Source: Hysterium pulicare CBS 123377
Lineage: Eukaryota > Ascomycota > Dothideomycetes > Hysteriales > Hysteriaceae
Direction: 5' to 3'
Assembly: GCA_000467715.1 (NCBI GenBank)
Contig: AJFK01000238.1
Span: 1-53,036, forward strand
Length of the DNA: 53,036 nucleotides
Every line of letters begins with the position of its first letter. The stretch's first letter is position 1. The position numbers and the translations under genes are program-made. This document shows, in pieces, positions 13,805-49,262 of the stretch. A model generated the notes under the pieces. The model saw only the letters and a program-made list of their open reading frames with translations, ran no database searches and was not told the DNA's origin.

Positions 13805-15735
13805 CTACACCTTTATAAGTCCTTCTTCAGTAGCCTTTATTTGTAGGGCCACAAACTTCGACATAATACGGCAAAGTGCGAGACTGCCACCCATGAACCA
13901 TAGTTTGGGATGTCCGGACGGTCGCCACATCTATAGAAAGCATGTTAGTCATAATATGAGGATACGGAGAAGGGGTATGTGGAACTTACAGCATTAACTT
14001 CACCCTCTTCATCTAAATCCCAAACATCATTCGCTCGATTAGCGACCTTATCTCCGAGAGTCTTACGCAGAGTAGTTCGCATATTATCAAAACCAGTCGC
14101 CAGCACGACAACATCGGCCTCGAGTTCCCGTCCGTCAGCGAGTACAAGAGCATTAGGCTTGAATCCTTTGATCCCATCGGGGCTCTGAACGAGTTTGATC
14201 TTGCCGTCAATTAAAAGCTGGCTGGCGCCGACGTCGATGTAGTAACCACCACCTCGAGTGATGTACTTCCGGTAGATGCCCGAGCCATCGTTGCCGTAGT
14301 CAAGCTTGAAGCCAATTTTCTCGAGTCCTTCGATGTTTTTCTTCTCCGCAGCCTTGATTTTCTCGGTCATGCCAACGTTCAGCGCAAATTGTACCGGAAT
14401 AGGCAAGCTTTGGCCAAAGATATCTGCATCTTCAATCGGTGGGCCGTGCTCGTCGTATAGCCCTTCATGCAACATGAAGAGACCGGTGCTAGCAGAGATG
14501 ACGTAAGTTCCGCTCCTTTGCAACATGGTGACCTCCGCGCCGCTTTCGTAGTAGTTTTGTGAGATATCATGACCGGAGTTCCCAGTTCCAACAACGATGA
14601 CCTTCTTGCCCGCGACATTCTTCTGGAATGAGGCATCCTTGTGCTGGCTACCGTGATAAACCGTTCCATTGAATGCGTCTTGGCCGGGGAAAGTGGGAAT
14701 CCTAGGTTCGCCGGCATGTCCGGTGCAGAAGACGATGTGCTGTGCTTTTACCTCAATCGTGCGGAGAGGACCGCTATCACCGCGCGTGATCTGAACCGTC
14801 CATGATTGAGTTTCATCCGAGTACTCGGCAGTCCTGACCGTGGAGTTCAACCAAATGTTGAGCTCCATTGCGCTGGCGTATATCTCGAACCAATCCGCTA
14901 ATTTATCTTTTGGAGTGAATAGCGGCCAGTTGGACGGGAATGGCATAAATGCCATATGAGTATATTGGACTGGGTCATGGGTCACAAGCGTCCGGTAACG
15001 GTGTCTCCAATTGTCACCGACTCGTTCGTTCTTGTCGATGATCAGGGTTGAGAGGCCTAATGCTTGGAGACGGGCTCCCATGTTTAGCCCGGACTGGCCA
15101 GCTCCAATGACGAGTACGGTAGGTTGCCCATCGAGAAATTCCTTCTGCCGTTGTCGTCGCTCGTACCAATTCCCCTCTGCCGTACCGCCGCGAAGGGAAT
15201 TGTTACCACCGTGGGGGCGGAAGTCTCCTGCGGACTCTGGATGACCCTTAAGTTCGGCAAGGGCTGTGTATATCATATGTGCTTTCCAGGTACCATTGGG
15301 AAGGGATACGAGTCGAATCATTCCTTTTCCGGACCCCACGGCAGTGTCGAAAGAGAACATGGTCTCAACCCATTCTAAGTCTCGAATTGGCTCTTCTCTG
15401 TGTGGCGCAAACTGCCCTGATTCTTGCAGTTGGAGGTTCTTGAGGCCCGCCCTGGAAAGATTGGACTTTAGGTAACTGGATATTTTTGATTGGCCTCGGA
15501 GAGTGTGAAAGTCCCAGGAAAGAGCTAGTTGATCCCGCCACCAGCCATCTTCATGGATCATATTCGCGACCGCACCCGCATCTCCAGTGGAAAGTTTTGA
15601 TTCAAACTCGGAAAGCCATGATTGGGCAATATCTTTGGGGGAGGTAATCTCCTTCACGGACACAGAGGCATGATTTTTTGGAAATATAGGAAGCTCAATC
15701 GTGTGCAGAGCTTCAAGCTGAGCAGCAGCAGACAT
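13805..15735 (-). CDS. FAD/NADPH flavin monooxygenase with N-terminal NTF2/SnoaL-like domain
   Basis: Two exons (15735-13990 and 13930-13805) with a 59-bp intron give 623 residues. Residues about 35-165 form an NTF2/SnoaL-like fold region. Then come the FAD loop GAGQSG (211-216), the FMO signature FNGTVYH (355-361, pattern FxGxxxH), the NADPH loop GTGNSG (383-388), and DVVVLATGFD near the C-terminus. This arrangement is shared by a family of about 600-residue fungal flavin monooxygenases of the CzcO/YUCCA-like group. Likely chemistry is NADPH- and oxygen-dependent hydroxylation or Baeyer-Villiger-type oxidation; the substrate is unknown. The last 41 residues lie on the second exon and are lost if the intron is missed. 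Every key motif is intact, unlike the broken BVMO at 5 kb. Confidence 0.9.
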
Positions 15736-18174
15736 GTTGAAGACGGAATATGGAGTAAGAAGCGGTTGCGTATTGTGTTGGCCGGGAAAGTGGGAGGCTC
15801 ATCGAGCGTATTTGAATGACTGACATCGCTCTTACGCCCCGAGCGCCGGAGTGGACTATGGACAGTATAGCGCATCGTTCCGTCATGTCAAAACACAAAC
15901 AAATCAAAGGTATTCCGTGTATCTAGAGCGGGGATCGAGCGGGGAGGCTTTTTGCGTAGCTATCAAGACGCGTTATCACGCGGGGATGTGTGGAGAAACT
16001 GGAATTCGGAGGTGCATCCAGCCGGTCACGAGATGGCCCGGCGCATCTTCTCAAAAGCGGGCCGATCCCATCACTTCTACCTTTTCCAAACTTCCGGTCC
16101 GACTATTCTAGTTCTCTATCTTTAGGTATACTTTGAGATGTTATCCACTCTAACCCTAGCGCAAAGTCTACGTATTGTGCTGCATCCTCTGTAACTTCTA
16201 ACGGCTAGCTCGGCTGCTCGACACACACAGACCACAGGTCAATATAATTGGTTAGTCATTCCGTACATTGTTTGTACCACAAGGCATTGCGATGATTCTT
16301 GCCTCGGCCCATTAAGTACCAGAGATATTGGAGATCTCGCGGTAAGGTGACACTCAGTTGATGAGCTTGTGGGAGCGGAGTTCACCGAGGAATACCAATT
16401 GCCTAACATGCACCTCCGGTGCTAAAGGTACTTGATTTATTTTGTGGTCCAGAATAGTCCAAGCCTCAAATGCTTTTTTGTACGAGGATAAATGAATACC
16501 TTAGCTTTCGCAATGGTTGCCTCTAAATTGATGAAGAGGCCAACCAAGTCTAAATCTATTGATAGTTAGGCTATCAGCTCCACGGATCAGCAACTTCACA
16601 AGGGTTCCAAAAGATTGACGACCAAGACACTGATCGAATTCAGCCCATTGGATTTGACCAGCCGGAACGCTGAGAATCACCCTTTGCGAGTCTTGTTTTC
16701 CCGGAACCGATCACTTTCTGATTGGAAACGGCCATGAACTCGCAATAGATGGGATAGTTTATTAGATTTTAGCTTTTTACTGCTAATGTAATAACGGAAA
16801 GCCTTGCGCACGACATCTTTAATGCCCGTTGAGGGCTCGATACTCCTCTTAGACGATGATACCCAGGTCGAACCGCATATACGGACAGCAAGAAGGATCT
16901 CCACGAGGTTGATGGGCAGCCCAGACTCTATCGTGTTCTAACACCCACTGTGATATGGTACGATGAGGGTTATGCCGGAGGCCAAGGCCTTTTACAATGG
17001 GGTTTATTTAGTGAAGCTGGTGGAAAAGACGAGTCAAAGTGCTCATAGTACAGATAAAAGAGGTTTAAGTAAGAAAGTACTCAAGGGGAAGAGGATGGGA
17101 AGAGGAAAACTGAAGAAGGGGGATAGAATTGACATTATATAGGGCTTTGAGGCCGCCCTACATAGCACGATTGAGCTCAGGGAACGAACTCAAATCCAGT
17201 TCGCTACCGGAACCCCAAGGAATAGTTCCCAACAACACCTACTGTATTTTGCTATGTTGAGGAAATTGGATTCTAACATGGTAAAACTGAAGATTCAGGA
17301 GATGAGATGTTTAGCGAAATTAAAGGGGGAGGCTTAGAAGAACAAGTTACATGATCGTATTGATCATGTGACTTATCTTGTTCCGCTAGTTTGGAGTCGC
17401 ATATATGTAGTAGACTTAGCTAATTGAGTTATTAGAACCTTGGAGTGATTGAGGAGGGTTATCTTGAAGTAGATGGCCCATGGTGTCGTGTACATGTTTT
17501 TCAGATCTCAAAGCCGGGGTCGGGTGACTAATCCCGCGGAAGACCGAAGAGGATCGAAGTATAGTATGCCAGAGATAACATGTATAGGAACTCATCAGCA
17601 CGAGGAAAGAGGAAAACACTATATGAAAGGAGGTAACGATCTAGATGGCTACTGAAACCTGAAAAGCTGAGAGTAGGCGAGAACGTGACGATCGAGGTAA
17701 CCTGAGCTGGGAGCGAAAGCAAGGAAACAACGATACAATACTGAGAAGGGAAGAAGTGGCACCATTTAGGAAGCAGTGACATCGTCAAATTCCATGCATG
17801 GGCGCTCTAGCCCACCGTAACTGCAGCCTTAATACTCAACTTCTTCCGTACCTGAGCAATCCGGATTCAATTCCTCCCACTTATACGACTCCATCCCTTG
17901 CAGGTTGAGCGCCGCCTTCATAGCTGGAAATCTCACATACTCCAGCTTATCACCTCTCAATTATCTATCACCCAGACGGGAGCGGATGGCCGCCAACCTT
18001 GAGACACGAGTGGAAAGTGGAAGCCACATATACGTGTGGACAATGGCCGCAACAAGGAGCTACAAATGTACCAATTTCCATAAAATTAAGGATGAACACA
18101 AGCAAACTATAACCCATGACAGTTCTAAGATGAATCGCACTGCAGTAGCCAGAAATATTTCAAAATTTGAAATG
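15736..18174. other. Long intergenic with a possible C-terminal gene scrap
   Basis: About 2.4 kb with no intact gene. On the minus strand at about 17841-17970 a short frame ends in a plausible protein tail (with YVRFPAMKAALNLQGME then YKWEELNPDC) directly before a stop. A stop lies about 43 codons upstream, so at best it is a remnant; I do not recognise it. A palindrome occurs at about 17339-17383 (ACATGATC, 5-bp loop, GATCATGT, with flanking AACAAG/CTTGTT). The rest is unremarkable. Confidence 0.35.
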
Positions 18175-22882: not shown

Positions 22883-23458
22883 TCAGCCTGTATTATGCAA
22901 GAATACTTGAACATAATGATAGCTGGTGTCATCGGATCCGCTGGAACGGACCCATTTGAAATAGTTGTTTCGGGATACATCTTCAGGGATGTATTTGTCG
23001 TATTGATTCTGTCGTATTGCTTTCCAGGAGAGGTTGTCCCTATTGTGGTTGATGTGCGCCACGAGAAAATTGTGAATCTCGACTGCTAGTTCTCGCTGGA
23101 CCCAATCGGGAGATTGGAGAACACATGGGTGTCGAAGAACATGTCTGATGAAGTCTCTCAAAATCTTGATGATACTTTCAATGGATACTAAGTCTGATGC
23201 ATGATCAGTGCTCAAATGTGAGGTTCTGTTGTACAGTTTCCTTCTCTTCTGGGGCTGCTCAGTGAGTAAAATAGCATCTGTATCCTCTTCCAGGAGCAAA
23301 GGGCAATCATTCAGTCCACACTCATACCGGATGGTTGTCAAAAGTACTTGAACCTTCGCCTCTGTTAAGTCCACAACAACTGACTCCATAAACTCGTCGA
23401 TTTGATAATCGTACAGGCAAAAATGGTGGTCCCGAGAAAAGTAACCTCCTCCAATCAA
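22883..23458 (-). pseudogene. Fragment resembling a fungal bifunctional (CPS/KS-type) diterpene cyclase
   Basis: An open frame of about 191 codons carries pieces typical of the class I half of fungal copalyl diphosphate/kaurene-type cyclases. These are YDYQIDEFMESVV near the start, VQRELAVEIHNFLVAHI in the middle, and YFKWVRSSGSDDTSYHY near the end. In the family the last piece sits just before the NSE metal motif. Neither the DDxxD region on the N-terminal side, the NSE region, nor the class II DxDD half is present. On one side the fragment abuts the 3' end of the rhodopsin-type gene; on the other it ends at a stop after a probable frame change. About 0.6 kb of a gene that is normally near 3 kb remains. 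The identification rests on remembered motif patterns, not a search. Confidence 0.5.
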
Positions 23459-23530: not shown

Positions 23531-24941
23531 TCAGTTCCTTGATAATTGGACTCCTCTCGTGACATTGATCCCTCCAGAGCGATTGTCGATTAGCTGCTCA
23601 TCGGTTTGGTGGGAAAGGCGCTCTACATTGACGGTGGTGTGACCCTGGTACATAGGGTTAAAATCCCTAGGAGAAGTCTTAAGTGCAATGTGTGTTTCGC
23701 TGCTGGAACCGGGAACGTCACCGTCCCCAAATTTAGAATAGTTGCTATTGTCGCCAGCAGTGCTGGAGCTCCCGCTACGAAGAGAGAATATCGATCTGAC
23801 GCTCCGTATGAGGGATTCCGGTTTTCTGTGCCCTCGGACAAGCGGTCCATAGCAGGGCAAACAGGCAGCAATGATGGAGCAATTGCACTCGAGAACCACG
23901 AAAATAAAATTCTTGGATTGGAGGACTGATTGTGTTAGTGGACATATTCTTGGATTTGGAACAATTTGACGGGTACTTACACACTTGACTAAATCCCTGT
24001 GAATCAATGACTTGGTGAATTGACTGGTTGAGCAGCACCAGACGAACAACGGCCGCAATGCAACAGCTATATGAATTCAGTGATCTGATGCGTGGCAGGT
24101 AACTGACAATTACTTACAAGGCGCCCAGCCAAAAAATCATGCTTATCGTCACCTTTCGTTTTGTTTGCAAGTGAAGGTTGGTGATGACGGGCAGGGGAAA
24201 ACACAGAATAACAACATCGAGGGCGATGCTCGATCCAACTTGAGCAAATCCAAGTTTTGCGGAATCGAATCGTAATCTGCCTTGACCAGTCCAGGAGCCA
24301 GAGAATGGATCACTCTGGAACAGCATCAACTATAGCATGATTAGCTTTGTTCATTTGGAATGATAGACTTCAACTTACAAAGAAAAATATGAGGCTCCAG
24401 CAAGTCACTATGGCGATTGCAACCCACACAGCAATCTTGAATTTCCGAGACAGCCCCGGGATATCGAAGATTCTCTTGTAAAACAGTAGGACGGAGATCT
24501 TTACAGCGGCAAGAGGCGCTTGAATGTATGCGCTTGAAAGCCATAAACACTGTCGAGGCCTTCTCAGCATCACAACTCCAAGTTTGCGGTAAGCGATTCG
24601 GCAAACAACATACCTTGAGAGATCCCGTAATTCCCTTCAAGAGACTGACGCTAAAATAATCGATTCCAATCTCCGCGGCAAAGACCCAGATGATTATGCT
24701 CTCCCCCAAAGTGAAAATCTACACATGCCTTGTCAGCACAAGTTCACGTACACGCGGAGCCGTTCTGTACCCATGAAGCCACGATCCACCAGTCGTCGTA
24801 ATAGGATGGCTGTCGAGCGACTCTACGGGCTCGGTATCGAAAGAAGATCGCCAGAAACGATAAAAATGGGAAGATGACCGATACAACCACGAGTGCTGTG
24901 GTGATTAGAGAAGGTTGCTTTGTAGCGCTTACTGAAGACAT
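23531..24941 (-). CDS. Fungal-rhodopsin-domain (Pth11-like) integral membrane protein 1
   Basis: Six exons (24941-24771, 24718-24614, 24549-24379, 24329-24118, 24066-23981, 23925-23531) give 379 residues. There are about seven hydrophobic helices with the family's marks: DDWWIV after helix 1, KISVLLFYKRIF in helix 3, ALDVVILCFPLPV in helix 5, IFWLGAFCCIAAVVRL in helix 6 and NFIFVVLECNCSIIAACLP in helix 7. A polar tail of about 100 residues follows. Such proteins sit in the plasma membrane and are often found in fungal metabolite clusters; some relatives act in surface sensing. The role here is unknown. It is head-to-head with a P450 over 510 bp, and its 3' end abuts the cyclase fragment. Confidence 0.88.
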
Positions 24942-25451
24942 GTTGTGTTAACTGGTGTTTTAAGAGTGCCTAGAAATCCGACATCCAACTGAAGTTAAGG
25001 TAGCATTCTTGTGATCAGCACCGCTCTTTAAGGATGATGAGAGACGAGAGGGAATGTCTCCGTTCAATCCCGTATACCGACTCTCCGTACCGACATGCTG
25101 TGCCTCGCTTACTGCATATCTTACCCCGGTCCATTGGTGTGAGAGCCAACGCACATCCAGTATTGTTACATTAATTTTTATTAACTCGACCGTTGGCCGT
25201 AACTTTGGCCCCAACTTCCACGATCTGGAAGGTCTTATTTTTTTTTGGTTTCGAGCATCACTCCCCTGCGCTACCCTGGTAGGCGATTTAGGTGCGGCTC
25301 ATCATAACCACCCGGCGTCTATCTTCTATATTACAGCAAAAAGCCTCGCCGCAGGCAGTGCTTCGACTTGATATACCAATGCAGGGCCGGAGGCTTCGAC
25401 ACCGGCATCCCTCACTGAAACTTTGGATTTGATTTGATCTTTTCACTTACG
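24942..25451. promoter_or_regulatory. Divergent promoter, membrane protein 1 / P450
   Basis: The 510-bp gap between outward-facing genes should drive both. It has T-rich tracts near 25170-25250 and no coding frame that I trust. Confidence 0.4.
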
Positions 25452-27109
25452 ATGGCAAGCAACACACATTTTTACCACCCGAATATTGATCTCGCTCTTT
25501 TGGGGCCTACAAGCTTCCTAAGAATTGCAGTGTTTACTTCCGTCATACTGTCTTTGTCATACCTTATTCGTCGCCTTGCCTCTTATAAGGAAAATGACAT
25601 TCCAACAGTGAACCGTCGTTTTGCTCTTGAACCTAGCATTTTCGCCCGGTTTCGCTGGGCATTTGGGTCGATCAAGATCTTGGACGACGCATATGAGAAG
25701 GTAAAATCCACCCTTCGCCGCGAGTTCCTGATGCTGAGGGCTTTTAGTATCAAGGTCGACCATATCGACTTGCCCGTGGAGACGCCGATGTGATCGTCCT
25801 TCCACCACAGTTCATAATGGAGCTCAATAAGTTGCCTCAGGACATGATAAGCTCTAGGAAGTCGCATTCAATGTCTCTGACCGGATACTTGAACGGAATG
25901 GACGTAGTAAAGAAAACCAATCACCATGTCAAGATGCTGCTCTCTCGAGTAACTCCCGCCCTTCCGACTTTACTCAAGCCTGCGAGCAGCCGAATCCAAT
26001 GCGCCATCATTGAGTTGTTTCCACAAGATACTGTCTCCTGGAGCGCAGTAAACCCGCTCGATAAGGTGGTTCATTGTATCAGTCAAGCAATAGCCCTGTC
26101 AACTTTTGGTGCTCCAACCTGTGATAACCCTAAGCTGATACGTCTGTGCTATGAGCATACATTGAATGGTATGTGTGAACACTGAGCACGAACCAGACCA
26201 GAACTAACTTCAGTGATAGTATTCTCGATTATGTTTGTCATGCGACTTGTCCCACGGCCCTTGCAATTCATCCTTGTTTGGACTCTTCCGCACAAGTGGA
26301 AGTTGCAGCGGAGTTGGAAGGCCTTGGAAGACTTCGTTGTTCCTGAGGTTCAAAGACGCCAAAGGGAGGAAAAGGGTTCAGTCAACCAGGATTTGATATC
26401 ATGGATGCTTGCGGAAGATAAGAACGGGGAGTATACCGACCCGTACATGCTCACTCGCCTCGTAGGATCTATTATCGCTGGCGGCACATACAGCTCCGCT
26501 GCCTTTATCGTTGGCGTCATAGCAGATCTAGTTGCTCATCCAAATTTTCTCGAAGAAATTCGCGAAGAGATCCGTGAGAAACAAAACGAAGTGCAGGGAA
26601 AGTGGGATCAAGCAGCCTTTGACAGCTTGGACAAACTGGACTCAGCCATGAAAGAGACATCGAGACTCGCACCTGGAAGCTTGCTTGTTTACAGTCGATA
26701 CGTGGAAAAAGATCTCACTCTATCAAACGGCCTGAGACTTAAAGAAGGACAATACATCACCACTTCGGGTCATTCCACGTCCATGAATCCGAACGTTTTC
26801 CACGATCCAAAGCAATACGATGCTTTGCGCGCCTATAATCACGACTTTGAGAGCCACCGTGCGCAGCCATTCAGGAGCGTTGAAGGCGAAGACCATAGAT
26901 GGGGTGCCGGAAGATGGGCATGCCCGGGGAGATTTATTGCAAGTCTTGTGTCCAAGGTCATTCTGGTGAAGCTTCTTGACGAATACGACTTCAGATTCAC
27001 TGACGGGCAGCGACCACCAACCTCGGTCATGCACGAATTCGTCTTCATGAATCCCTCGACAAAGTTCATGATGCGACGCAGGGAACATAACTCAGGCATA
27101 AAATATTAA
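25452..27109 (+). CDS. Cytochrome P450 (first of five)
   Basis: Three exons (25452-25700, 25748-26168, 26214-27109) give 521 residues. A membrane anchor lies at about residues 24-42. The first intron is needed to enter the frame reading YQGRPYRL then VIVLPPQF. The I-helix reads AGGTYSSAAF, with Ser where most P450s have the conserved Thr and no acidic residue. The ExxR pair is in KETSR. The haem loop is WGAGRWACPGRF with the ligand Cys at about residue 460. ER-bound haem monooxygenase; the substrate is likely a terpenoid or other lipophilic scaffold, judging by family feel only. It shares a promoter with membrane protein 1. The start at 25452 follows an in-frame non-ATG stretch. Confidence 0.88.
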
Positions 27110-35183: not shown

Positions 35184-37009
35184 CTAACGACCTCGTTTGA
35201 CAATACGAATCGGCAGTTTCTTCAACATCTGGATATTGATATTGAACTCCACATCATCCTTTAGCTGAATAACAGCTTGATCCCGCGTCTTCTGCCAAGC
35301 CATCTGCGTATCGTCATTGCAATCTTTCAACATCTGATCGTTCACTATCAGCTCTATCGAGTAGTCCTTTAGCAGGGTTGCCAGAAACGCAACCATCTCA
35401 ACTTGCGCAAACGGTTTTCCCGGACATTGCCTCGAACCGTATCCAAAAGGCCAGTACACATCGGTATCTTCCGGAGCCCCAAGCCATCGCGTGGGATCGA
35501 AATCAATGGCTTGCGAGTGGTGAAGCTCAGCTCGTCTTTCAGGGGAAACGTTTTGCGGGGTCCATGTCGATGGATTTTGGAAACAGGCAGAGAAGTTGAT
35601 TAAGCAGGTCGTGTTTGGAGGAATGAGATGAGTTTTGCCCATAGAGTCGGTCATTGTGGTTGGTGCGACAGTTAAGCGGAATATGAACTGGACCACGTTG
35701 TAGAGGCGGAGTACTTCCTTGAGAACCGCTCCAAGGTAACCTTTGTTGAGAACCTGATAATCATGTTCCGAGGTCCACTCTTGCTTTGGACGATCGCCAA
35801 GTTGACGGTCCAGTTCTTTCTGGATCTCTTTCTGATGCTCGGGATAGACGGCGAGAAGGAGTGTCGTGAAAGCCAAGGTATTTCCCGTGGTTTCGTGTCC
35901 GGCCATCAAGGTGAAGAAGATGTTGCCTAAGACGCTTTTTTCCGGGAGGGGACGACTACCCATTTGTGAAGCTCGATCAGATCCGGCAATCACTATAGAT
36001 TCAAGGATATTCTTTTTCGGTTTAGCGGAGACCTCGTCAATCTTTTCGAGCGCTTTTGCACGTAGATCTTGCATGTACTTGGTGAAGTCTGTGAAAGCGA
36101 CATAAGTCTCCCGGCAAACCTTGAAAGGTAGTACGCTCAGAAGAGCTCGTGGCACCATGAAAATGAGCCCAAGACGTTGGAGAACCGTGAATAGTGCACT
36201 CTCGAAGCTGATCTTGTAGTTTCCGGCTGAATGCTTGCCATCCTGGGTATACTCCCTCCAATCAATCTCACGATCGAAGAAGACGCTCGAGATGACATGA
36301 AGCGCCAACCGTGATGTCCAATGTTTAGGGGTTGGAATAACAAATTTATCTTCGGCCCAGCGGTCAATCAAAGTGTCGGTCTGGTGAATGGTTTTCTTCC
36401 ACACGGTTGGGAGGGTCGAGGGATTTAGCCCATACGTGACAATTTTTCGATGGTTCTTCCATTCATCTCCTTCCACAGATCCGATGGTTGGGCCCCATAT
36501 ATCGTAGAATCTGAGCATATCGACTGGGACTTCAACGGAATGGAGAGTGAAGAGCTGCTTGATTATCGCGGGATCGCAGGTCCAGAGCATATTCTCCTTG
36601 GGAGTCGCCAGAAACAGGGTGTCGCTGCCTGCCTCCTGGAACGGTTGATATCCGAACTTCCAGATGTTCCCGATTTGAGAAAGGCTATAAAATCTTAGCG
36701 AGTTCAACGCATAATGGATGAAGTAAATCCTTACGGAAGCCATGGGGCTCGCAAACTACGGGGAAGAAAATTCACCCAAGGCGCCAGGAGTGGATAGAGC
36801 ATGATCCACCAGACGTCGGTAATGTGTACTCTACTTGCAATTAGCATGTACAAGTGATTGACCCGCGATGTTTAGGGAACGTGCGGTGAATAAAAGGTCG
36901 GGAAGCCAGCTTGTCGGGCAGCCGCGTAGTTCTTTCGCCATGTCGAGACTTTTGAGTATATGAAAGCAACAGCGATGGCTGCACAGCTGGCAAGAATGAT
37001 GTTCACCAT
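35184..37009 (-). CDS. Cytochrome P450 (second), with a probable GC-AG intron
   Basis: Three exons (37009-36885, 36830-36735, 36684-35184) give 573 residues. The N-terminal anchor (IILASCAAIAVAFIYS) and a proline-rich turn (GFPTFYSP) are on exon 1. Exon 2 adds TDVWWIMLYPLLAPW. The I-helix AGHETTGN is at about 335, ExxR (KEVLR) at about 397, FDPTRW at about 470, and the haem loop FGYGSRQCPGK at 487-497. It is a full-length ER P450 with all classical residues. The frame between exons 1 and 2 closes only if the donor is GC (gcacgt), because the nearby GT gives the wrong phase. The remaining exon boundary is ordinary. Substrate unknown. The 3' neighbour region is empty. Confidence 0.88.
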
Positions 37010-37382: not shown

Positions 37383-39205
37383 TCAACAATGTTTACCCTC
37401 TTTCTCTGTCCCAGCTCTCCTTTGAATCCGAATCTTAACATCCGGCGGATATCTAGCCCACATTATATAAATAGGCTTCGGCCTCTCCTTAATATACTCC
37501 ACCTCGTAATTTAAAAGCATTTCCGCAACGAAGATCTTCAGCTCAAGAAGAGCAAAAAATCGTCCCGGACAAGCCCATCTTCCAGGAACACCAAAGGCTA
37601 GGAAGCTGTCGTCAAGCGTCACGGTCGATTTCACCTTAACATTCTCTTGGTCGTCTGGGTGCGCGAAGCGGAATGGGTTGTAGCGATGTGCGTCTGGGTA
37701 AATACTGTCGTCGTATTGAATTGCTTCCGTTGGCAGTGCTATGCGTGTACCTTTCGGTATACAGAAGTTCCAGTTATCTGCTCTGATCCCGTCGGGATGT
37801 AAAACCTACACGTACACATAAGGAATCAACTTTTTGTTATGGAGGACAGATTTAAAAACCTTACCTACCTTTCGCGGGAGCGATAGTGTTCCAAAGGGAT
37901 TCATTCTCATGGACTCTCGTATCGCAGAATCTACAAGTCGAAGCCTTTTCACGGCCTCCGGAGTCCATTTGCCATCAGATGCATTCAGTGCCTGTTCACA
38001 TTCTTGACGTAGAATGTCAACATAACCTAATGAAGGGTCCGTACTGAAAAGGTCCAAGATAAAATTCTGGGCGGTGTATGCTGTCGTCAACATGGAAACA
38101 TCGTTTACAAATAGTAAGCGCTGGCTCACACGCTTGGGATGAAGCTGCGCCTCCGGATTTTTGCTTGCGTAGCATTCATCGATGATCCATTGGAGAGCGT
38201 CATTCTATACGTAATTGTTAGTTTTTGGAACACACGCGTGCTTTTGAAAGTTGAGGATCGCACAGGAGGTGTCCAGTTGTAACCAGGCTCGGCTTTCCAT
38301 CGCGCTGTCTTCTCCAATCGATCCTTAACAACTGGCCTACTTCTCTTCATCGCCCTCTCCGCCGTGAAGCCTGAAACCCAGGAAAGCACAGGCCCGAAGA
38401 AGGGTTGCAGAGACTTCGGAAAACAGTTCAGGATGAGGGCGCCGGAGAAAATGACCATAGCATGATCTTTCATCCTGTCTAAGAATACAATATCACGACC
38501 TGGCCCGGAGTAGGATGCAATTAACAAATGAAGTATATAGTTGGGATTGTGAAGACGAACATAGCGGTAGCCCACAGAATGCACCATTTGCAGCACCTGC
38601 TACTATACGTAACGCTGAGGTCCAAACCCTGACCTCCTTCCATTCGGTGTCATGGCCCCAACTCCGCTGGAAGCCGAAGTCAATTTCGGCCGCTACGCGG
38701 GGAGTTACTTTGGGGATGCTTTGGGTGAGTTGGTTGCGAACAACATTGAATTGTAGCCTTTCAGCGAGTAGATGTGGATCCGGAAAAACCCATTGCAATT
38801 GCATGGTTTCATCCTGCACTCCATGTACGTCCAAGACATCTTCGGGCAGTCCGTAGACAGTCTTGATCAGTTGTCGTGGCAGCACCACAATAGGTCCAGA
38901 ATCTAGGGTAGGAATGGTAAAGGGCTTATTTGCTCTGCAGTACTGATATTAAATTTAGAGATAGTGATACGAGATAGAAGTGCGGTATGACCTACCTTCG
39001 CATACCCTTCAGAGGTCCATACGCATGTGCACTGAACTGATTTCAATCCGGCCCATAGGCAACTGAACCGCTCGCCACGAATCCCCACTACAGGCTGCAT
39101 CTTCAGGAACTGGGTTTCATCATTCTTACGGATTGAAGCTCGACTACGAGACCATAATAAGGCAAGAATGAGTAATGCAACAAACACCTGTATCAACACA
39201 GCCAT
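37383..39205 (-). CDS. Cytochrome P450 (third), paralogue of the 47.4-kb gene
   Basis: Five exons (39205-38996, 38942-38561, 38499-38264, 38204-37869, 37805-37383) give 528 residues. The N-terminal anchor is VLIQVFVALLILALLW. The sequence continues with PFTIPTLDSGPIVVLP and YGLPEDVLDVHG, typical of ascomycete P450s acting on terpenoids. The I-helix region SMLTTAYTAQN has no acid-Thr pair. ExxR is in RESMR. The haem loop reads FGVPGRWACPGRFF, one residue longer than the FxxGxRxCxG consensus, with Cys at about 467. The exon layout matches the P450 at 47.4 kb intron by intron. Donor gttcgt at the second intron is shared by both. No inactivating change seen. Confidence 0.88.
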
Positions 39206-47417: not shown

Positions 47418-49262
47418 ATGTACTTGTTGACAGGGCTGGTCATTTTCACGCTTATTGCACTTTCTTGGGTGTATCTCAGCAATCGCGACAATGTGCAAGC
47501 AAGGTTTTGGAAAGCTCATCCTATTTCAGGCGCTCGATCAGAATGGCTCTGGTGGGCACGCGTGGTCATGAGATCTGTCTTTGGAAGCAAAGCGATGGTG
47601 GATGATGGATACAACATGGTCAGTCCATTCCAGCCTCTCTTAACGTAAGCAGGTATTGATACAAGGACAGTATTCGTGCAAGAACAGCATCTTCGGCGTG
47701 CCAAGCGTCGACCGTGGAGCCTTTATTGTGGTTCCGCCACAACAAATCAAGTCGATCTATGACCTCCCCGAATCGCTCGTTGATGCACACTGGACGCAGT
47801 CGGAAAATATTCAAGCAAAGTATACAATTGGAGATCCCGAAATATTTTCACAAGCCTTCCACGTTAACGTCATCCGCAATCAAATAACGAGGAGCCTAGA
47901 CTATCTCACTGCGGGCATTGTCGATGAGTTATCGCTCAGCTTTAAGAGACACTGGGGTATCGACGAGCAAAACTGGAGATTGGTACCGGCCTGGCCAAGC
48001 TGTCTTCAAATCGTTGCCGAAGCTGTCAATCGGGTGTTTGTTGGGGTGCCTCACTGTTCGTGCTTGAGCCCAAAAAATACCTAGCTAGGTGCTAATCTTA
48101 ACTTCATAGGTCGCAATAAAGAATTTTTGAAGGCGACGAAATGGCATGCTGAGTGGGTTTTTACGAACGCCTTTCTCATCCATGCCGTACCTTGGTTTAT
48201 CAGGCCTGTACTCGGTAATTTGATATGGGTATACGGCAAGAGAGTGCGCAGCAGATGCCTCAAGCCGATGCTCCCTTTGATTAAGGAACGGCTGTCTCAA
48301 TTCCTACAGCAACAAAATGATCCATCTCCCCATTGGAACCCTCCGGTAGGTCATTGCGCCCCGTTTACTGTGTGCCATAGCTTCTAACAAGCTACTTAGA
48401 GAGATGGTTTGCAGTGGCTGATTGAAGAGGCCTGGAAGACGGGTAACCAAAAATACATCGACCCCATCCGTATCAGTCATCGTCTCCTTATCTTGAATTT
48501 TGTCTCTATGCATACGACTAGCTTTACCTTGGCGAATACTATCCAAGATCTTTTTAGCCAGAATCCACGTATTGGAACCGTAGAAGACCTGCGCGAAGAA
48601 TGCGCTCGTATCTTGGAAGAGACTGGAGGCGTCTGGACGCAAGATGCTGTATCTAAGCTACATCTCGTCGATTCAACCATTCGAGAGTCTATGCGAATTT
48701 CTTCCTTCTCTGTCCTCGCTCTGCCACGACGTGTGAGTGCACCCTCGTAGCCTCAAAATGCGAGCTCGCTGCTAAATTATCTCAGGTGGTAGCTGAAAAA
48801 GGCATCACTATCGACGGTGACGTTCACATTCCCAAAGGAATCTATCTTGCCACGCCAATGGACGCCATTCATATCGACGGAAACTTTTATAGCGACCCAA
48901 CGAAATTCCATCCATTCCGTTTCTGCCACTCATCTCACGTACAAGGAACACGAACACAAACTTTTTACAAAGCCCATAATCGAGATGCTACGGTGCCTCT
49001 ACAAGATGTTGAAATCACTTCCGGCAAGGCGAAATCCACAGTCACCTTGGATGATAGGTTCTTGGCTTTCGGACTCGGGCGGAATGCATGCCCAGGGAGG
49101 TTTTTCGCTCTTCATGAGATAAAATTGATGATGGCGCATATTTTGCTTAACTACAATATCCAGTATTTTGAGAAGCGGCCCGAGCAGTTTAAGATCATGT
49201 GGGTGCAGCTGCCCCATGACAATACCCATTTTACAATTAGAAGGAGGCAAGGGACGGTTTGA
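47418..49262 (+). CDS. Cytochrome P450 (fifth), paralogue of the 37.4-kb gene
   Basis: Five exons (47418-47618, 47671-48055, 48110-48345, 48400-48732, 48786-49262) give 543 residues. The anchor is LLTGLVIFTLIALSWVYL. The middle reads GAFIVVPPQQIKSIYDLPES. The I-helix region is SMHTTSFTLAN, with the HTTS motif common in fungal terpenoid P450s. RESMR holds ExxR. The haem loop FGLGRNACPGRFF is at 480-492, Cys about 487. A 25-residue insert before the haem region distinguishes it from its paralogue. Intron positions and the third exon length (236 bp) are the same in both, so the two arose by duplication and diverged. The first intron's acceptor is placed to match the paralogue. ER-bound; substrate unknown. 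Confidence 0.9.

Follow-up and report, generated by a model that had tools for sequence, protein, structure and literature searches.

The window analyzed here, a stretch of 53,036 nucleotides, is the whole of one contig (C186) of the Hysterium pulicare CBS 123377 assembly, which comprises 37.2 Mb in 596 contigs. On its minus strand lies a stop-to-stop frame that we read as the probable relic of a diterpene synthase gene (Table 1), and which is the sole stop-free frame among the six over its interval. The G+C content by codon position in this frame is 0.51/0.32/0.49, against a flat 0.52/0.52/0.51 in the adjoining intergenic DNA, and resembles that of coding frames of the window such as the monooxygenase frame at 13945-15798 (0.57/0.42/0.54). 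When searched against its own genome, the frame matches only itself at E <= 0.001. No RIP-like mutation was seen (relic indices 0.54 and 1.32), the repeats around the frame are short and weak, and an AlphaFold model made from the single sequence was uninformative, with a mean pLDDT of 38. Among 55 pattern matches in the prokaryote collection and 5 in the viral one there was no relative.

Upstream of the relic frame, and outside it, lies a rhodopsin-like gene, in which PF20684 exceeds its cut-off only at the frame 24370-24636. The frame at 23531-24076 is matched by the same family below the cut-off (E 0.041) and is presumably the last part of this gene; it ends 66 bases short of the relic.

The window lists 48 frames of at least 130 aa, and the Pfam scan covered 27 window frames, among which there is no backbone enzyme. 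P450 matches (PF00067) occur at four places, in frames 26186-27109, 35184-36755, 37383-37805 and 48657-49262; their I-helices, read by eye and given in the same order, are AGGTYSS, AGHETTGN, SMLTTAYT and SMHTTSFT. Also present are frames for a flavin monooxygenase (PF00743) and one more Rossmann-type protein, a pair of short-chain dehydrogenases, a GST, an FAD-linked oxidase and an alpha/beta hydrolase, besides MFS and sugar transporters and a fungal transcription factor. With this gene content the window resembles a neighborhood of tailoring genes.

The initial annotation had suggested that, if the relic was correctly identified, the locus once made a diterpenoid, in keeping with nearby P450s that have HTTS-type I-helices. 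As judged by eye, this description fits one of the four window P450s and not the other three, and P450s with this type of I-helix are not known to be specific to diterpenoids. The GGPP synthase family (PF00348) has at least three loci in the genome, on C231, C588 and C82; none of those found lies on C186 or on C78, the contig that carries the second relic described below. These three presumably are the housekeeping synthases of FPP, GGPP and long-chain products. A cluster in which a pathway GGPP synthase lies beside the cyclase and P450s was found at neither place. With no GGPP synthase family member found in the window and the HTTS form in a single P450, we treat the production of a diterpenoid by this locus as a weakly supported possibility.

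Table 1. Positions of the features discussed in the text; coordinates refer to the window unless a contig is named.
Feature	Position	Strand	Description	Basis
Relic frame, 193 codons	22883-23464	minus	Probable class I domain fragment of a fungal diterpene synthase	Stop-to-stop, no internal stop
YQIDEFME	23384-23407	minus	Fungal class I metal-binding motif DEXXE	PMC4617483 Table 1 (rows as printed there) and block profile
SIESIIKILRDFIRHVLRH	23129..23185	minus	Conserved class I stretch; reference NIEASLRRFVDHVLHH	tblastn and alignment
RELAVEIHNFLVAHI	23051-23095	minus	Conserved class I stretch; reference ILWRELRAFLHAHV	tblastn and alignment
FKWVRSSGSDDTS	22922-22960	minus	Conserved stretch ahead of the NSE region; reference FDWVRTTAADHVA	tblastn and alignment
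Rhodopsin-like gene	23531..24947	minus	Neighbor outside the relic	PF20684
SMHTTSFTLAN	48505..48537	plus	HTTS I-helix, the only one among the four window P450s	Read by eye
Second diterpene synthase relic	C78:85904-87807	minus	Class II domain and class I tail	Reference alignment, frames read at locus

Similarity to class I domains of fungal diterpene synthases

In the intact bifunctional enzyme the class II domain, with its DxDD motif, folds GGPP to a copalyl-type diphosphate in an acid-started reaction, and the class I domain then ionizes this product, with the DEXXE and NSE motifs binding Mg2+. As reference we used a provisional full-length fungal CPS/KS sequence, in which the three blocks printed for P. 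nodorum_a recur without a mismatch; only these 57 residues were checked against print. The best tblastn match of this reference in the window is the relic (reference residues 716-799, 35.8 bits, E 2.6e-4), followed by a match at E 3.3; none of 61 control queries, made by shuffling or reversing the reference, reaches 35.8 bits, the best of them scoring 32.3. A local alignment of the relic with the reference class I domain spans 169 frame residues with a score of 83, compared with a mean of 33.6 and a maximum of 65 for 1000 shuffles of the relic frame. The two sequences are 26-28% identical, and the relic covers reference residues ~653-799, possibly starting at ~626. The similarity runs in register over the class I domain.

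A profile of the DEXXE block was built from 53 of the 57 rows printed in PMC4617483, with identical rows counted once; R. rufulum_a, Z. passerinii_a, P. marneffei_a and T. stipitatus_b offered no alignable block and were dropped. On the window this profile gives its top score, 36.1 bits, at HFCLYDYQIDEFMESVVVDL; the runner-up among 105,954 positions reaches 3.6, and 30 shuffled windows reach 20.1 at most. The relic thus carries DEXXE in its proper sequence context, as frame residues D23, E24, F25, M26 and E27. The initial annotation had named three patterns in this frame, and YQIDEFME, RELAVEIHNFLVAHI and FKWVRSSGSDDTS are indeed present on the minus strand in the stated order. It had also reported neither DDxxD nor NSE. 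Both are literally absent; the class I metal motif, however, is present as DEFME, and the earlier point was wrong in substance because DDXXD tends to give way to DEXXE in fungi, according to PMC4617483, and QIDEFME is such a DEXXE. Just ahead of this motif the alignment shows the relic to be a net 8 residues shorter than the reference, perhaps owing to a small deletion.

When the class I reference was run by tblastn against a small set of nine loci, the only answers came from C186, C78 (E 0.013) and L018 (E 0.21), the last being one of the PF19086-type loci described below. The C186 alignment was here carried beyond the stop of the relic without gain, with 35.8 bits both times, and we do not count the added stretch as homology. 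An open frame that resembles diterpene synthases by chance would fit the low identity to a provisional reference and the lack of any match in Pfam or PDB; yet the observed scores were not reached by any control, and the strongest block sits at a published catalytic motif. We therefore hold chance resemblance to be extremely unlikely.

The silence of the databases was itself subjected to a positive control. In Pfam the relic frame has no match at E <= 1, and a sequence search of PDB yielded nothing above noise, with 0.66 as the best E. The reference's class I part (381 aa) is matched by PF19086 at the NSE region, below the cut-off (E 2.9e-4), and otherwise only by PF01830 (E 0.069), while its class II part (565 aa) has PF13243 (E 0.13) as its sole Pfam match. 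In PDB the control reached a best E of 0.49 and matched no terpene synthase. The PF19086 match of the control lies essentially past the end of the relic frame, so the portion of the reference enzyme that corresponds to the relic is equally invisible in both collections, and their silence is no argument against the relic. The initial annotation would have taken a complete lack of hits as a refutation; such silence would have misled, as PF19086, the terpene cyclase model that picks up the control, does so at the NSE region alone, a part missing from the relic. Judged by the one reference used, Pfam and PDB overlook this portion of fungal diterpene synthases.

Recognizable homology ends about 20 bases past FKWVRSSGSDDTS, at 22901, which is ahead of the NSE region and explains why no NSE/DTE signature is seen in the relic; 26 out of 300 shuffles equal the score of the flank downstream. 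The upstream flank shows no significant similarity to the reference either, with an equal score in 63 of 300 shuffles. Neither a class II domain with DxDD nor a C-terminal class I tail was found in the window by tblastn, in which all other reference matches have E >= 3.3. The proposal of a relic of a bifunctional cyclase is thus upheld for the class I part, by tblastn, profile and shuffles alike, whereas its class II part was not found in the window.

Since class I homology is kept while the NSE region and the class II domain are not recognizable in the window, we consider it very probable that the frame is an internal piece, now dead, of a bifunctional diterpene synthase of the fungal CPS/KS type, a reading drawn from sequence comparison. 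Some 150-170 class I codons would remain, with DEXXE kept and no recognizable NSE region, class II domain or C-terminal tail, and from this anatomy the product would not be expected to work as an enzyme. The decay is shown by truncation and not by lesions, as the frame is free of stops and coding-like in composition. These same properties might be taken to indicate an exon still in service, within a short or spliced gene that has acquired a new role: 193 stop-free codons have a chance of about 5e-5 given the base composition, and the G+C content by position is that of coding frames. A young relic, however, would also be expected to keep the open frame of the coding gene from which it came, and the recognizable class II and NSE parts are missing, which makes continued use very unlikely in our judgment.

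A second relic and the number of genes

Searched against the H. pulicare genome, the reference protein gave a single match at E <= 10, on the minus strand of C78 at 86107-87783 (reference 5-546; 182 bits, E 7.8e-53, 30% identity), with two TGA and two TAG stops inside. Alignment at this locus extends the class II domain, which contains DADD, to reference residue 547, and places the class I tail (reference 872-939) directly next to it; at 86104-86109 these alignments have two codons in common. The relic therefore lacks residues 548-871, which form the class I core, and the reading frame continues across the junction. In shuffle controls the tail was equaled in 0 of 200 cases and the short class II end in 4 of 200. 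Further damage is visible as a frame change near 87650, a stretch within 87182-87283 that is matched in a different frame, an in-frame stop near 86912 (perhaps part of an intron), and another near 86516 at a reference tryptophan. The DADD motif was found only on C78. A P450 that adjoins this relic (L004:5718-7368) is split over two frames, for which breakage of the gene or an intron may account.

No intact bifunctional diterpene synthase was found in the one genome search made with the full-length reference. The same search detected C78 and failed to report the window relic, so its silence elsewhere is weak and further decayed pieces may be missed; searches with the C-terminal part and the class I start of the reference, of low power for decayed pieces, returned nothing at E <= 10. 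PF03936 likewise gave nothing at E <= 10, which is uninformative because this model responds in no more than a single one of 14 control genomes and exceeds its cut-off in none. PF19086 matched 10 times, on 7 contigs, with 9 of these matches above the cut-off and none on C186 or C78, and responds in 0 of the 14 control genomes. These other terpene cyclase matches lie on C1, C43, C62, C258, C411, C450 and C498 (L011-L018), and some, on C258, C411 and C498, contain a stop inside the matched stretch.

Consideration of the two relics together raises the question of whether one gene or two were lost. The window piece (~653-799) falls inside the C78 gap (548-871) without overlap, and the two relics may be halves of one gene, from which the class I core was cut at C78 and a part landed in C186, both then decaying. 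This complementarity, together with the usual single copy per genome (39 of 48 species in PMC4617483), suggests one gene, as does the failure of the reference to reveal a third relic. By simple arithmetic, however, chance alone would place a fragment as long as this inside the gap in roughly one case in five, and the power to find more decayed class I pieces is low, given that the genome search with the reference did not pick up even the window relic. Comparison with 42 of the 57 printed rows, leaving out 15 (near-copies, odd lengths, empty fields and further rows), places T. reesei_a at the top for C78 (joint score) and in shared second place for the window piece; across rows, on the other hand, the similarities of the two relics are not significantly correlated (Spearman 0.22, p 0.16). 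The DNA common to the window and the 15.4 kb around the C78 relic amounts to three matches of 17-21 bases. On balance we regard a single former gene as somewhat unlikely.

We lean instead towards two separate diterpene synthase genes, each lost independently and leaving one fragment, and consider this more likely than one gene. The genes that neighbor the relics differ between the two places, the window relic being flanked by the rhodopsin-like gene and the GST gene and the C78 relic by an OST3/6 gene and the P450, and the scarcity of common DNA points the same way. Two or three such genes occur in 9 of the 48 species (PMC4617483), and six kinds were counted across Magnaporthe oryzae strains (PMC10512213). 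Against this stand the prevalence of single copies and the requirement for two genes and two losses, with no piece of either gene overlapping the other's. Should the relics nonetheless derive from one gene, the class I core may have left it by in-frame excision, part of it being re-inserted on C186 beside other tailoring genes. We think this course of events unlikely; if true, the gene left on C78 may for some time have encoded a cyclase reduced to its class II domain and a stub of the class I tail, until it decayed in its turn.

Proposed pathway decay and comparison with known systems

Taken together, the two relics observed on C186 and C78 and the lack of an intact member in one genome search lead us to propose that the pathway of a diterpene synthase was removed by gene decay; it seems that a diterpenoid pathway was lost in this way. 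The prediction of a relic in the window is in our view settled, and the genome is one where a two-domain cyclase is found only as complementary pieces. Relatives that carry an intact gene could reveal how bifunctional enzymes break up.

Like fungal CPS/KS enzymes, the relic has the DEXXE block and the same order of conserved stretches up to FxWVR. Its nearest counterpart among the DEXXE blocks printed in Table 1 of PMC4617483 is that of A. niger_a (11 of 20 residues identical), followed by several rows with 10 of 20, including T. reesei_a and A. sojae_a. It differs from the intact enzymes in being cut down to this core segment. Cases of enzymes with no product are described for Magnaporthe, where the authors (PMC10512213) weigh pseudogenes or an experimental artefact.

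A further likeness is to the degenerate gibberellin clusters of Fusarium, where partial clusters with pseudogenes remain after loss of the diterpenoid pathway (PMC3694855). According to that paper the partial clusters always lack P450-2, GGS2, CPS/KS and P450-3, whereas in H. pulicare pieces of the cyclase itself persist, on two contigs; the likeness concerns the decay and does not extend to a gibberellin cluster. The decay is ordinary gene decay, a new case of the known loss of fungal diterpenoid clusters, and its unusual feature is that the cyclase pieces on the two contigs are complementary.
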